From: Vaginimicrobium propionicum
GTDB lineage: Bacteria; Actinomycetota; Actinomycetes; Propionibacteriales; Propionibacteriaceae
Assembly (NCBI RefSeq): GCF_900155645.1
Contig: NZ_LT706985.1
Location: forward strand, 496,001-560,000
DNA: 64,000 nucleotides
Direction of reading: 5' to 3'
In this document: piece after piece, positions 40,478 through 47,752 of the stretch
Position numbering within the stretch: position 1 is the stretch's first letter
How the letters are laid out: the number at the start of each line of letters is the position of its first letter
The notes under the pieces: generated by a model
Seen by the model: the letters and a program-made list of their open reading frames with translations, nothing else
Told to the model about the DNA's origin: nothing
Database searches by the model: none
Position numbers and translations under genes: made by a program

Positions 40478-40636
40478 TAATACTCCTTCCTGAACACTTT
40501 AGAAGTCTAAGCGACCAATCTAAGAGACACCCAGTCCCTAAATATCGAGTTGTCCTGCCACTTGTACAAGTAAGGCCTCAACAAGTTAAACTCAGCCGCA
40601 TATGCAATCGAATGATTTTAGTTGTTGGGGGAGTTA

Positions 40637-43600
40637 GTGTTCGAGAAATTTAAGACATTAGGCGTGCTGGCGGTTGCTTTGCCATTTTTTATAGTCCCTG
40701 GCATCACAGATGCTTGGGCTGAAACTGATGTCGTTGACTCAGCGAACCCGTCCGCTTCGGCCACTCCAAATGAAAATACGGAGCCAAGCGAGGACGTTGA
40801 GCCAGTAGATGATTTAGAAACACCCTCCCCCGATCTGGCTGCTGAGCCTGAAACTCCAGAAAGCGACAATGCTTTAGAAATAGCGCCAGAAGCTGTCCCG
40901 CAGCCTGTGGGTGCTCCTGGTCAGACTATTGTTATTAATAGTTTCGATGACTTAAAGCCACATCTTTCGGTTACCGAAACATTTCTCAAGCCTGGTGTCG
41001 CTGAGACAAAACGGACAGTTCTTGGTCTAGAGCCTGGCAACTATCAGCTAGCTACTGATCTATCTCTAAACATGCAGGATCCATATTTTGCCGATAAGCA
41101 AGGTGCCATAGCTATGGGGCTGTTTTCCTTTGCCCCATCTGACCCACAAGCTAGTGAGGCTAATCTCAGCTTCGATGGTAAAGGCCACAGCATCAAAATC
41201 GTTAACGAAGATGCCGTTTCCCTGTTTGGCACTATCCACGGCAATAACATTTCGATTTCTAATCTCAACGTTGAATACGCTAAGAACGTTTCTGGTCACG
41301 GCTTCGTCCAAAGGCTAATTGCTGGCGAATCAAATACTGCTACCGGCAAAGCGAACGGTTTAGTATCTAACGTCACTATCACTATTCCGGGTGATGTGAA
41401 GCCGCAGGCTATGACCGAACAAAGCTCTTATTCTAATAACTTTGTCGATGGTCAATACCAAGGTGATATAGCCACCGGTTTCGCCTGGTATTTAGATCGA
41501 ATTAATATCGATGATTTGAAGATTTCTGTTGCTGGCAACATCGGTTCTGATACTCCACCAAGTGCCGGTTATATGTCTTCAGCTTTTGGTCTTACCTTTC
41601 ATTACGGAGATGCGAGGCTAACTACTGAGGGCGAAAATCAGCTTTCTCAGGGCAACGATGAGGTACTGAAAGATCTCGGCCGGTTAATCAATTTTTCTCT
41701 AGACGTGAACAACATCATCGCTCACGGTAACTACCTAGCTATGAGCGCTGGGCTAGGTCACGATATGGGCGAAACCTGGGTTGATAACGCTGTCCTCAAT
41801 GTTAAAGGCGACATTAAATCTGTCGTCGACGGAAACGGTGATGGCATTAAACACTGGAAATATCGTTCCTACGCCGCTGGTTTCTCAGAAGAAGTTTGTA
41901 ACCTTACAAACTCAAAGCTTGACGTTAGCGAAATTGCTTTAGACGTAGCAGACAATATCCCCAACAAATTTAATGGGGGTCCGATTTATGGTGGCGTATT
42001 CGGTATCGCTTATGACAACTCCAAAGGTTACTTAGAGCGCGTCTCTAACAACACCCTAAATATTGGCAAAATGCAGGCTAAAGCCCCGTTCAATGTGATG
42101 ATGAGCGCCGGGTTCTTCAACACCTGGAATAGCTATGGCGATAGGGGAATCGATTTTTGGCAGGAATACGAAAAAAACACCATCACTGTCGGTGATGTTA
42201 ACGCAAATGTTTCTGGCAATAGCGAATTAAGCTTCCTAGGTTTAGGCGAAAGAGCGCGCACTGGTAAATCACTTAAACACGAACTCAAAGAAGTTTCCGC
42301 GCGCGACAACAGCATCACGGTTGGTAACGTTAATCTAACTAATCCTGAAGGCGATACTTTTATGTCGCTCTTACTAGAAAATGCTGCTAACGCCAAGAAT
42401 AATAGCGCTAACTACGGTGACATAACCATCAAGAGCTCTTCGACAGGGTTCACTGGCTTAGGGAAACTGCAAAATAGATTACCTAAGCGCGACGAGGATG
42501 ACGCCATGTTTGAAACCATGGCCGAAAATAACAACGTTAAAATGGGCAACGTCACCATCGAAACTAAGACTGCTGGATATATTTCATTACTTGCTGGCGG
42601 CCAGGATGTAGGCCAGAAGATGCAGTCAAATACTGCTCAGGCCAAAGACTTCCACGTAACTATTACTGACCCTGGCGCTAGCCGAGTCAACTGGTGGGTC
42701 AGTGGCATAGTTTCATATCAAAGAGATTCTATCAGTGGCTGTCATGTTTGGGTTGATGACGTCAGCCTGAAAGCTGGTGAAGGTTCAGACGGCTTTTTTG
42801 GTCTTGGATCAGGATTTTCAACAGCAGGTGCAACACTGAGCGATTCTTCAGCTTTCGTCCATAAAAACATCAATGTTGACGTGGATGCTCATCTTTGGGG
42901 TGGCGGCTTTGTTGGATACAGCAATGGTTCTACTTTTACCAACAACAACTTCCAAGTCGACGGCGAATTTGGGGCTCCAAAGCAGGGCAGCTTCCTGGGC
43001 GGTTTCGTTGGGCGAGCCAAAGACAGCAAGTTCATCAACGATTCTGCCCTAATGTTGAATAGCTACGCTCCGTTCGCCCAATCCATGACTGGTGGAGAAT
43101 TATCGGATATCTCTCATTACATTAACCATCCAGCTCCTGATTATTGGTCGGGCTTGTTGGCGGCTGGCAACGATAAAAATGACACCAATACAATGCCGAC
43201 GGTTAAAGACTCGACACTGTTAGTTGAGCGCGCTAACCAGGACACTCCTTTATACGTGACCAGTCAGGTTAGCCAAGATTCGGGGAACAACTGGGTGACA
43301 GTAGTCAACAACGAGGCTAGCCCCGTCGAAATTGCTGGGAAAAAGAATTACGACAATAGATTGGGTTATTCAACCAAGACTGCTACCCACGAGTGGGATG
43401 GCGAAGAATACCCGGTAGTTGTTAGGGACGAGGCACAGCCAGTTGGCAGTATAAATATTGCCCACCGTTCTTTCCAAGATAAATACTGGAACCCCGATTC
43501 GCCGTACTACGAGCCGGCTAGTACTAACGAGGCGCCCGAATCTGACTTCGGCTATCTCGACCGGAAAACAGATATTGATGCCTTACAAGCATTTGGTGTT

Positions 43601-44062
43601 AACGCTAGCGACATCGTCTCAGATGACGTAGCCAGTGGCACTTTGAGGACTTGGCATAAACGCCACCTTGGGCTACGTGCTGCTACTAGCGCTACTGCCC
43701 CAGGCCCGGTTTTTGATCTGCTAGGCATTAAAGCAATGGCCAAATATTCGGTCACTTATAACGCTAATGGAGCAACCGCCGGTAGCGTGCCGGTCGATGA
43801 CAAACTTTATCTGCTAAATGATGAGGTATCGGTTGCCATGCTTGGCACACTGGCCTGGGATGGATATAAGTTCTTAGGCTGGAATACGCAAGCTGACGGT
43901 AATGGGATCATGTACCAACCTGGTGACGTTTTCCAGATCACTGAGGACACCGTCCTTTATGCCAGGTGGGAAAAGGCACCCGAATCTAGTGAGAATCAGA
44001 CACCTCAACCTAACCAGGAAAAGGTGTCTAAACCTAAGCGGTTACCAAAGAGCGGCTGTTAA
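40637..44062 (+). CDS. Large secreted/surface protein with InlB-type repeat and LPKSG end
   Basis: About 1141 residues. Signal peptide (KTLGVLAVALPFFIVPGI, likely cleavage after AWA), then an acidic Pro/Glu/Ser linker, then about 800 residues of beta-rich sequence with recurring Asn/Gly motifs such as NTITVGDVNANV and NSITVGNVNLTN, suggesting a right-handed beta-helix. Near the end is an InlB B-repeat (Listeria-Bacteroides type): VTYNANGATAG, YKFLGWNTQADG, VLYARWEK. It ends KRLPKSGC and stop: an LPxTG-like pentapeptide without the hydrophobic helix and basic tail. I chose GTG 40637 over TTG 40622, though GGGGGAG lies only 3 bases before it. Probable host or matrix interaction; ligand unknown. 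Confidence 0.85.
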   Translation: MFEKFKTLGVLAVALPFFIVPGITDAWAETDVVDSANPSASATPNENTEPSEDVEPVDDLETPSPDLAAEPETPESDNALEIAPEAVPQPVGAPGQTIVINSFDDLKPHLSVTETFLKPGVAETKRTVLGLEPGNYQLATDLSLNMQDPYFADKQGAIAMGLFSFAPSDPQASEANLSFDGKGHSIKIVNEDAVSLFGTIHGNNISISNLNVEYAKNVSGHGFVQRLIAGESNTATGKANGLVSNVTITIPGDVKPQAMTEQSSYSNNFVDGQYQGDIATGFAWYLDRINIDDLKISVAGNIGSDTPPSAGYMSSAFGLTFHYGDARLTTEGENQLSQGNDEVLKDLGRLINFSLDVNNIIAHGNYLAMSAGLGHDMGETWVDNAVLNVKGDIKSVVDGNGDGIKHWKYRSYAAGFSEEVCNLTNSKLDVSEIALDVADNIPNKFNGGPIYGGVFGIAYDNSKGYLERVSNNTLNIGKMQAKAPFNVMMSAGFFNTWNSYGDRGIDFWQEYEKNTITVGDVNANVSGNSELSFLGLGERARTGKSLKHELKEVSARDNSITVGNVNLTNPEGDTFMSLLLENAANAKNNSANYGDITIKSSSTGFTGLGKLQNRLPKRDEDDAMFETMAENNNVKMGNVTIETKTAGYISLLAGGQDVGQKMQSNTAQAKDFHVTITDPGASRVNWWVSGIVSYQRDSISGCHVWVDDVSLKAGEGSDGFFGLGSGFSTAGATLSDSSAFVHKNINVDVDAHLWGGGFVGYSNGSTFTNNNFQVDGEFGAPKQGSFLGGFVGRAKDSKFINDSALMLNSYAPFAQSMTGGELSDISHYINHPAPDYWSGLLAAGNDKNDTNTMPTVKDSTLLVERANQDTPLYVTSQVSQDSGNNWVTVVNNEASPVEIAGKKNYDNRLGYSTKTATHEWDGEEYPVVVRDEAQPVGSINIAHRSFQDKYWNPDSPYYEPASTNEAPESDFGYLDRKTDIDALQAFGVNASDIVSDDVASGTLRTWHKRHLGLRAATSATAPGPVFDLLGIKAMAKYSVTYNANGATAGSVPVDDKLYLLNDEVSVAMLGTLAWDGYKFLGWNTQADGNGIMYQPGDVFQITEDTVLYARWEKAPESSENQTPQPNQEKVSKPKRLPKSGC

Positions 44063-44070
44063 TTAAAAAC

Positions 44071-44110
44071 AAAATGGCTACCCGCCCAGATCTGGGCAGG
44101 TAGCCATTTT
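44071..44110. terminator. Bidirectional 20-bp inverted repeat between convergent genes
   Basis: Arms 44071-44090 and 44091-44110 are complementary at 19 of 20 positions, forming a long hairpin flanked by AAAA and TTTT, so each strand ends the stem with a T-run. It lies between the stops of the surface-protein gene and the ABC transporter gene and should end transcription in both directions. Confidence 0.85.
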
Positions 44111-44120
44111 GTATAACGGC

Positions 44121-47100
44121 CTATTCGCTTCGTAACGCTTCTACTGGATCTTCTTTGGATGCCTTAGACGACGGAATCAACCCGGCAACAAAAGATAGAG
44201 CCATCGAAACAACAATCAAAATTATGGCTGCCAGCAACGGTAACTGGGCGATATTGTCTATCCCGAATTTGTTAGACACCACGATATTTGCCGGAATAGT
44301 AAGCAATAAAGTAGCCACAATGCCGATAAGACCAGCAACAAATCCAATAATTAGCGTTTCGGCGTTAAACACTCTAGCAATATCAAGTTTACTAGCGCCG
44401 ATAGCCCTTAAAATACCGATTTCTTTACGCCGCTCTAAAACGGAAACATAAGTAATAATCCCGATCATTATGGACGAGACCACCAACGAAATAGACACAA
44501 ATGCAATTAGCACATAACTAACCACGTTAACTATGTCGGTAACTGATGACATTAAGGTGCCGACAACATCTGTATAAGTGATTACTTTCGATTCCTCGTT
44601 GGCAGCAAGCTGGGTGTCGTTATAGTCATCTAGGATTTTGATAATTTCGCCTTTAGATTCGAAATCTTTAGGGTAAATATCTATCTGGGTGGGTTCATTC
44701 AACTCTGCATAACCTAAGGTGCGAAGGTTACGTTCTAAGGTGTATCCCTCATTTTTTGACATTGCCATGAATATTTGAGCTAATTCTTGCGGGTCAGCAT
44801 TAATACTGAACGCCTCCAAGAATTTTTCCTCATCAATATTCATAGCGTTAGACATATTGGCTGCTAACTGACCAATAACATTTTCCATAGAGCCAGAAAT
44901 TTGGCTCGATAGCGAGGCGGCAATCTGCTCACCAACCTTCGAGGCATAAGTATTCATGACAGATGACAAATAATTTGTCAGTGCCACCTGCAAACTATTT
45001 TCGAGACCAGATAAATCTAATCTCACCCCGGCCTCGCCTAAGGCTTGGCGTCCAGCATCGGTGACTAAGAACTTTGGTAAAACATTTTGAACATCTAACG
45101 GATCTAGGCCACTAGTTTGGGCAAAACTCAAATAGGAAATAGCGAATTTTATGCTGGTTTTAGAGCCGGGCATCGCATTATCGAGTTTGTCTATCGCTTG
45201 GCTTCCTGGCAGATCCTCAAGAAATTGTTGAAGTGTTGCGGCAACGTTTAGCGGATCAAGACTTTCTGCCTCCGCATAGTTGAAATAGGCATCAATAAAA
45301 TCCATCACCGGTTGTATGCCAGTTTGCAAAGCCTGAGCCATTTTTGCTAAGGCGGCTTGTCCTTCGGGATCTTTCAGAAATATCTGTAAATTATTCCTGG
45401 CCTGGCTAGGATCTAAACCCTTCGATTCAACAAATCCGGAATAGGTGTCAAGAAAGTCGTTGATGGCGCCTGCTATTGCACCCTGCGAGGCGCCGTCATT
45501 ATTTTCAGGCGGGTTGACCACAAAGATGTCTTTCAGATTCATGCCTTGGACTTGGGATAAGTCTAATTGCGGCATGGCATTTGGGTCTATATCTAGATAT
45601 GGCATGGAAATGCGCAATGCTGAAGGGTCAATGGTGAAGGCATCCGCATTAACGCTAAAAGCTCCAGCGAGTTTATCTTTATCGATTTTCACCAATTCGC
45701 TCGGATCAAATTCTGATATTGCCTGAGATTCTTCAGCAAAGCTCTTCCCCGAAAATACATTCACTCCCGGATGAGATAACTGATCGCGTACTATCTCAGA
45801 TTTTGCGGCATAGTCAATCAATTCTTGGGTTAAATCATTAGTGTAGTAAATAGCTGGATAAAGCGGAGTTGGTGACGTGGCAGATTTCGGTTTTACAATG
45901 CCGGAAATATGCATCACACGGCCATCTGCCACCAATTTTTTCAAGTATTCTTTGTCGCTGCTTCGGTCACGCCAAACGTGGTATTTGTCGTCGAGAGTGT
46001 AATAGTCGCTAGGGTGAACTAATTTCACCGTCGACGACATTATCTGGTCATAAGAATATGAACTAACTGGTGCTAGTCTCTCGACATTCTCACCAGCGCG
46101 TAATTTATCGATCATGCCAGCCAATTCGTCTGGATCTTTTACCCCCAAGGCGTACAATGCCATATCTGTCACTGACCCGTCATTGGTCAGCACAACAACC
46201 ATTTCGTCTGAGCTGCTCGGCCAGTCTCCAGCGACAATGTCATAGTAACCTTCGACGATTGACATATCTTTCACAAGTGGGCGGAAAGTGTTGGAGTCGG
46301 ACAGCTGAGCCGAAAAATCGGTTCCAGCCGAGGCGGTGAGCCCCAGCGCATTAAATGTTTGGTCAGGATTTACTTGGTATATCTGGTCACTTTGCAGATA
46401 GAAATGCGGGGTTATTCCGTAAAAATATTCGATGCCTTGCACATAGTCATCAATATTTCCACCGTTATGGTCGATAAATGATTTAAGACTGGTCAAATCA
46501 TTCGAGTTCATGCCTTTGAACACCGAGCCCAACATTGGCATTTCTTGAACTTTATTCGGCTCCGAATTCGGCTCACTGGCTTGATTTGCCATGCCTAACA
46601 TGGCTGTCATATCCATACCCTGCGAATAAATTTGCAGCGGATACATTGACAGCGTTTCTTCTTCAAGATTCTTGATGTAATCATCGACGCCGGTTGCCAG
46701 GGCAAGAATCGCGGCAATCCCGATAATTCCAATGCTGCCAGCAAAAGCGGTCATCAAAGTGCGACCTTTTTTCGCCAGCAAGTTTGTGAATGACAACCCT
46801 AAAGCGGTCAAAAAAGACATTCGACGATTCTTATTGGGGTTACGAGTTTCGAGATTGTCGGTTTCAACCGTAAACGGATCAGTGTCGCTGGTGATGACTC
46901 CGTCTTTCAGATGAACTGTGCGAGTCGCATATTCGCTGGCTAACTGCGGGTTATGGGTGACCATTATGACGAGCCGGTGACGCGCTATACCTTTCAGCAG
47001 CTCCATGATGTGCGTGCTGGTTTGGGAATCCAGTGCACCGGTTGGCTCATCAGCCAACAAAATTTCTGGGTCGTTAATCAGCGCCCGGGCAATGGCAACC

Positions 47101-47546
47101 CGCTGCATTTGCCCGCCGGAAAGCTGATTCGGGTGCTTGTGCACGTGGTCACATAACCCGACGTCCGCCAACGCAGCTAGGGCACGCGCGCGTCGTTCAC
47201 TCGGCGCCACCCCCGCCAGTGTTAAAGCCAATTCGACGTTAGCCAGGACGCTTTGGTGCGGAATTAGGTTATAGCTTTGAAACACGAAACCTATCCGGTT
47301 GTTGCGGTAGGTATCCCAGTCGCGGTTGCTGTATTTTTTCGTCGAGACACCATCAATCACGATGTCGCCAGAATCGTATTTATCTAAACCACCAACGATA
47401 TTGAGCAGCGTCGTCTTTCCCGAACCGGACGGCCCAAGAATCGCAACAAACTCACTATCACGGAAGTTGACTGTTACCCCCGCCAACGCTGCCTGTGTAA
47501 AATCGCCAGTTGTATAAGACTTGCGCACATCCGTTAGCTGCAGCAT
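44121..47546 (-). CDS. MacB/FtsX-type ABC transporter, fused ATPase-permease with giant extracellular domain
   Basis: About 1141 residues from ATG 47546 (GAAGG upstream; the frame opens 10 codons earlier). N-terminal ATPase: Walker A LGPSGSGKTTLLNIVGGLD, signature LSGGQMQRVAIARAL, Walker B ILLADEPTGALDS, H-loop MVTHN. Then one membrane helix (FAGSIGIIGIAAILALATG), about 690 extracellular residues, and three C-terminal helices with the FtsX core (ISLVVSSIMIGIITYVSVLERRKEIGILRAIG, VSMALSFVAGLIPS). The topology is that of mechanotransmission transporters. The extracellular part carries three repeats of about 51 residues centred on LDP motifs. Substrate unknown; related actinobacterial and Firmicute proteins act in peptide export, sensing or wall-hydrolase control. 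Confidence 0.9.
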   Translation of the reverse strand: MLQLTDVRKSYTTGDFTQAALAGVTVNFRDSEFVAILGPSGSGKTTLLNIVGGLDKYDSGDIVIDGVSTKKYSNRDWDTYRNNRIGFVFQSYNLIPHQSVLANVELALTLAGVAPSERRARALAALADVGLCDHVHKHPNQLSGGQMQRVAIARALINDPEILLADEPTGALDSQTSTHIMELLKGIARHRLVIMVTHNPQLASEYATRTVHLKDGVITSDTDPFTVETDNLETRNPNKNRRMSFLTALGLSFTNLLAKKGRTLMTAFAGSIGIIGIAAILALATGVDDYIKNLEEETLSMYPLQIYSQGMDMTAMLGMANQASEPNSEPNKVQEMPMLGSVFKGMNSNDLTSLKSFIDHNGGNIDDYVQGIEYFYGITPHFYLQSDQIYQVNPDQTFNALGLTASAGTDFSAQLSDSNTFRPLVKDMSIVEGYYDIVAGDWPSSSDEMVVVLTNDGSVTDMALYALGVKDPDELAGMIDKLRAGENVERLAPVSSYSYDQIMSSTVKLVHPSDYYTLDDKYHVWRDRSSDKEYLKKLVADGRVMHISGIVKPKSATSPTPLYPAIYYTNDLTQELIDYAAKSEIVRDQLSHPGVNVFSGKSFAEESQAISEFDPSELVKIDKDKLAGAFSVNADAFTIDPSALRISMPYLDIDPNAMPQLDLSQVQGMNLKDIFVVNPPENNDGASQGAIAGAINDFLDTYSGFVESKGLDPSQARNNLQIFLKDPEGQAALAKMAQALQTGIQPVMDFIDAYFNYAEAESLDPLNVAATLQQFLEDLPGSQAIDKLDNAMPGSKTSIKFAISYLSFAQTSGLDPLDVQNVLPKFLVTDAGRQALGEAGVRLDLSGLENSLQVALTNYLSSVMNTYASKVGEQIAASLSSQISGSMENVIGQLAANMSNAMNIDEEKFLEAFSINADPQELAQIFMAMSKNEGYTLERNLRTLGYAELNEPTQIDIYPKDFESKGEIIKILDDYNDTQLAANEESKVITYTDVVGTLMSSVTDIVNVVSYVLIAFVSISLVVSSIMIGIITYVSVLERRKEIGILRAIGASKLDIARVFNAETLIIGFVAGLIGIVATLLLTIPANIVVSNKFGIDNIAQLPLLAAIILIVVSMALSFVAGLIPSSKASKEDPVEALRSE

Positions 47547-47752
47547 CCTGACCTTCCCGAGACAGTTAATCCCCACCTAAAGCTTAACGACAGCCAACAA
47601 CTGCTTGGCTAACCTGCACGAGCACTCAGGTGTACTGCAATTAGCTCTTCGTTGAAGAATTCGCCTTGCTAATACTTTCAATAGTAAATTTGTGTTTCTG
47701 CGCCAAACGATTTTAGATAAACAGAAAACAGGTACAAAAGCGAGATTTAGCC

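Follow-up and report, generated by a model that had tools for sequence, protein, structure and literature searches.

Textbook sorting signals of surface proteins need a hydrophobic helix and a charged tail. The family Propionibacteriaceae includes the skin bacterium Cutibacterium acnes, and Tessaracoccus is another of its members. According to the accessible parts of earlier studies, LPXTG proteins number 12 in P. avidum, 15 in P. acnes and 18 in P. granulosum, with nucleotidases among them (PMC3848858), and C. acnes has one class F sortase with 19 predicted substrates, for which Girolamo 2019 is cited (PMC7913060, PMC8200545). The closest described case is DsA1 (PA25957) of C. acnes, which has an LPXTG motif without a membrane-spanning domain and a charged tail (PMC5527093). 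The motif of DsA1 stands at position 411 of 432 residues, so that the remainder is longer than that of the protein described here, and the accessible part of that report presents DsA1 as a single odd case and proposes neither a family pattern nor an enzyme (PMC5527093). The missing tail has thus already been published for DsA1. The family-wide pattern seems to be undescribed: the literature that we searched held no description of it, subscription journals were mostly beyond our reach, and priority is uncertain.

In this study, we analysed a window of 64,000 nucleotides of Vaginimicrobium propionicum (positions 496,001 to 560,000 of contig NZ_LT706985.1). The gene under study and its surroundings have the following features:

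40622-44062, + strand: open reading frame of a secreted surface protein of 1146 aa with a tailless C-terminus
40622-40720, + strand: signal-peptide-like N-terminus, up to ...GITDAWA, recognised by eye (KD15 of residues 1-40 peaks at 2.29)
43745-43963, + strand: Flg_new / Listeria-Bacteroides repeat domain, residues 1042-1114 (Pfam PF09479, E 7.1e-11)
43976-44041, + strand: polar linker with basic residues at its end (...KVSKPKR), from the sequence
44042-44059, + strand: tailless sorting motif LPKSGC at the extreme C-terminus, an ending common to L089/L029
44060-44062, + strand: stop codon TAA
44069-44112, no strand assigned: terminator hairpin between convergent genes, 20-pair stem, with the T-run read on the - strand
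44121-47576, - strand: convergent neighbour, an ABC transporter of FtsX type

The C-terminus of this protein is ...NQEKVSKPKRLPKSGC, that is, KRLPKSGC followed by TAA. Like proteins with the LPXTG cell wall sorting signal (PF00746, Gram_pos_anchor), it belongs to a setting of signal peptide, surface-type domains, polar linker, motif and sortases; LPKSG at 44042-44056 is an LPxTG-type motif near the C-terminus in which Ser replaces Thr. It differs from that signal in that the hydrophobic segment and the charged tail are missing. In the protein at 40622-44062, the search after LPKSG for a hydrophobic segment and for a positively charged tail found neither, only one residue (C) and then the stop, and one residue after Gly is the rule in the proteins described below. 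Averaged over 15 residues, Kyte-Doolittle hydropathy peaked at 0.17 within the final 60 residues. No tail-like segment was found 3' of the gene in the other two frames, and the hairpin folds at -32.8 kcal/mol (z -7.1), with none of 200 shuffles equally stable. The first-pass annotation had read this gene as ending in KRLPKSGC-TAA without a tail, and this reading was borne out by the lack of a tail in any frame and by the strong terminator from 44069. The genome is a single contig of 2,010,679 bases, so the tailless end is not caused by a contig end. Flg_new is the sole Pfam domain of the protein (42.5 bits, above the cut-off of 27). No orthologue was found in the wider contig collection or in 95 relatives, and the sole signal of a relative was C-terminal Flg_new repeats in one genome (G031).

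The ending is not confined to the window. The pattern LPK[ST]G occurred at 14 places in the 2.01-Mb genome, versus 20 in the reversed control. In six of these 14 cases the motif stood close to the C-terminus of a long ORF, meaning one of about 500 codons or more; four of these ends were tailless, with 6-8 residues from L to the stop, and two were tailed (LPKSGGDSAW...AHRRKAK and LPKTGTSG...SRRR). L031 (FPKTG), the seventh long ORF among the 14 places, is not a surface-protein end. The four tailless secreted proteins, the window protein included, are all unrelated. One of the others was also found with the LPxxGC-stop pattern and ends KAKKLPKSGC-stop; a domain search on L089 found no domain. 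The remaining two have a signal-peptide-like start: LPKTGR-stop closes one of 736 aa, in which Rib and DUF7933 domains were found, and LPKTGVNR-stop closes one of 810 aa, which carries Ig and TIG domains. The tailless ends in this genome are more than chance. The motif searches in this genome required either Lys as the x residue or a terminal Cys, so that other tailless proteins may exist. The PF00746 search found further LPXTG proteins with full tails; tailed and tailless LPXTG proteins therefore coexist in one genome.

The LPx[ST]GC-stop pattern was then run on 198 genomes of the family, and among the matches listed it singled out Tessaracoccus sp. OH4464_COT-324 (G119). In this genome, a GH20, a VWA, a thioester-domain and a 5'-nucleotidase protein all end LPKTGC-stop, and by eye a hairpin-forming repeat follows each end. 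The GH101 protein of G117 ends LPRTGC-stop, and the lamin-tail protein of G110 ends LPSTGC-stop. All six are typical sortase-substrate domain types. L079 (LPRTGC, a 150-codon frame) was excluded as possibly frameshifted, and L078 has no N-terminus because of a contig end. As a control, LP[KR][ST]GC-TGA gave 8 matches in 394 genomes of the class, none of which closes a long ORF, and the longest open frame among those listed was 108 codons. A codon-limited scan for LPKTGC in the wider contig collection gave 17 stretches, of which three, from Tessaracoccus, are real ends, the same as those of G119; the remaining stretches among those listed lie in open frames of fewer than 100 codons, frames below 40 codons having been left out. 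No PF00746 sorting signal scored above the cut-off in the Tessaracoccus-group genomes G119, G117 and G110, though sortases are present there. Because PF00746 models rely on the tail, tailless substrates are missed by them, as these three genomes show.

The 5'-nucleotidase of G119 had matches in 94 of the 198 genomes, and the ends of 50 orthologues were inspected. Half of them (25/50) were tailless, three had a full sorting signal (G004, G027 and G160), 18 had no motif, and four were not readable, apparently because of a wrong frame (G142, G016, G039 and G043). Some of the 18 orthologues without a motif come from genomes with class F. In two of these 18, L245 (G111) and L248 (G107), a long P/K-rich linker ends GGGRTSARAC-stop, possibly a lost or frame-shifted motif. 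Among the 25 tailless orthologues, one residue follows Gly in 22, and two, three and four residues follow it in one each. All 25 have T and G, 24 have P and 23 have L; the L, P, T and G positions agree in 94% of comparisons, versus 13% for the linker. The first residue past Gly is V in eight, N in four, A and S in three each, H in two, and C, I, L, T and E in one each, with T, E or A in this place in the three that have a longer remainder; the last residue is free to vary. A motif that persists behind so freely diverging a linker is a motif in use.

In vitro, soluble LPXTG with one further residue serves as a sortase substrate, and the single residue past Gly in these proteins matches this smallest good substrate. 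An extra Gly after LPXTG is described, in the accessible part of one source, as improving the sortase reaction (PMC8553144). From the sequence comparisons, we lean slightly towards the view that the window protein is a sortase substrate with a tailless sorting signal, with a class F-like sortase as the likely enzyme. The signal peptide would export the protein and the polar linker would cross the wall; the sortase would recognise the C-terminal LPxTG-type motif with its single residue, without a membrane-retained tail, and the class F-like sortase would cleave the motif behind Ser/Thr and attach the protein to peptidoglycan. We infer the cleavage of the motif, the linkage to the wall and the part of class F. 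The ending points to a truncated form of the standard cell wall sorting signal; the loss of the tail probably happened at the level of the lineage, with the motif kept under selection. The first-pass annotation had offered two explanations for the ending. A deleted anchor that leaves a secreted form is disfavoured as a local event, since the ending recurs in three more proteins of the genome and in half of the inspected nucleotidase orthologues, while another anchoring mode fits better if it is taken to mean a tailless sortase signal.

Five proteins of the genome matched PF04203, and a sixth sortase is class F-like:

G000:C1:2002548-2003207 (L319 4549-5208), - strand: class F-like sortase of this genome, found with model A3 and compared with NCBIfam NF033748

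A3 is a model of the second sortase type of the Tessaracoccus group. Compared with the class F sortase (NF033748; SrtF of C. acnes), this enzyme shares the catalytic His, Cys and Arg, which are intact (SSHTY, IVCTD and GRM), and differs by its low score: it matched NF033748 over 150 positions with 59.5 bits, below the cut-off of 166, and for this reason we call it class F-like, a divergent member. By eye, its gene is flanked by those of DNA polymerase I and ribosomal protein S1. A3 matched 87 of the 198 genomes at E 1e-8; the 75 genomes with E 2e-31 or better were taken as the class F-like type, and the 12 that matched at E 2e-16 or weaker were excluded. His, Cys and Arg are intact in 48 of the 49 class F-like loci read, that of V. 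propionicum included, and the exception (G017) is a weak match. A class F-like sortase was found in 24 of the 25 genomes with a tailless nucleotidase and in none of the three with a full tail, a co-occurrence that is confounded by descent. The nucleotidase of G128 ends PPKTGH-stop, yet a class F-like match was not found in this draft genome. For G119, G117 and G110, PF04203 matched no proteins other than the class E-like and class F-like ones. The co-occurrence with tailless ends and the intact triad make class F the best candidate. Should class F truly act on tailless LPxTGx ends, the family's surface proteomes need redrawing, and the purpose of the tail can be tested on a single nucleotidase, whose orthologues naturally come both with and without it.

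Among the other readings, the one that survives best is that the tail disappeared in the lineage and left merely secreted proteins with a vestigial motif. The lack of a hydrophobic tail in any frame agrees with it, and DsA1 of C. acnes, tailless as well, is believed, in the accessible part of that report, to be both surface-associated and secreted (PMC5527093). However, an idle motif should decay, and here it is kept at the exact C-terminus of 25 orthologues behind a linker that agrees in only 13% of positions. We therefore consider a vestigial motif unlikely.

Another reading starts from a degenerate class E sortase of the same genome:

L009 1273-1884 (G000:C1:1675276-1675884), + strand: class E homologue (NCBIfam NF033747)

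L009 shares the whole domain of the class E sortase (NF033747; PDB 5cuw SrtE1), aligning over its full length at E 1.5e-34 with 119.7 bits against a cut-off of 160, and differs by Tyr and Ser at the columns of the catalytic His and Cys, so that neither catalytic residue is present. The class E model matched 163 of the 198 genomes, and the 90 copies read, which come from 89 genomes, divide into 43 with both His and Cys and 47 that have lost either or both. The dN/dS values of nine degenerate pairs (0.16-0.48) are close to those of four intact pairs (0.11-0.29), which indicates that the dead class E fold is kept by purifying selection. Degenerate copies occur in 42 of the 53 genomes with class F and in 5 of the 36 without. 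A class E pseudo-sortase with a membrane helix might bind LPxTGx and hold the protein at the membrane or pass it to class F, a receptor in trans substituting for the tail in cis. Against this, tailless ends occur in genomes in which the class E search at E 1e-15 detected no homologue (e.g. G012, G034, G109, G112, G116 and G122), and also beside an intact class E (G018 and G106). Moreover, 44 of the 47 degenerate copies fall in one clade of the class E tree, about five state changes suffice, and an independent-pairs test of class F against class E decay, with at most five pairs, was not significant. We regard this reading as quite unlikely, and give slightly less credence still to its more specific form, in which the dead class E would capture LPxTGx ends as they leave the translocon and present them to class F, a pseudoenzyme thus replacing the cis tail.

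The genome also encodes three class C-type sortases that could serve the tailless proteins (L006, L007 and L008, with triads present by eye; NCBIfam was run on L007), and a pilus-type class C sortase might polymerise or anchor them. Class C sortases act on pilins, however, and the pilins here are fully tailed (e.g. L011, which adjoins L007); tailless ends also occur in the Tessaracoccus-group genomes, where the search yielded just two sortases, one resembling class E and the other class F. This possibility appears very unlikely to us. That the window gene alone suffered a local deletion or frameshift, or was misread in sequencing, is highly improbable: a 3' deletion in a single gene would look like this, but three more genes here and many other genomes share the ending, and the other frames hold no tail.

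Three further ideas were dropped. Stop readthrough or a frameshift into a tail was ruled out, as no tail lies downstream in any frame. The terminal Cys as a lipid or disulfide anchor, suggested by the Cys at the ends of two proteins of this genome and of those in G119, reflected a bias of the Cys-only pattern, Cys being present in 1/25 tailless orthologues. A substrate Cys that replaces the lost sortase Cys was rejected, as the residue is free and tailless ends occur where class E was not found.

Beside the tailless sorting signal, the conserved pseudo-sortase raises a second question. An independent correlation of class E decay with class F was dropped, given the single clade and the too few pairs. 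The genome G100 has two class E copies (L172 and L189), one intact (HCR) and one degenerate (YGR), and from these two copies the degenerate clade may be a paralogue. The genome of V. propionicum has another weak relative:

L010 1447-2052 (G000:C1:1592253-1592552), - strand: weak sortase relative from the PF04203 search

L010 is probably dead, as its catalytic His and Cys seem to be missing (IIGGENTP and LTLFAPS). In the class E homologues L149-L152 (from G110, G118, G121 and G130), AGNC stands in place of AGHR beside an intact TTC, and the former active site thus holds two Cys and zero His.
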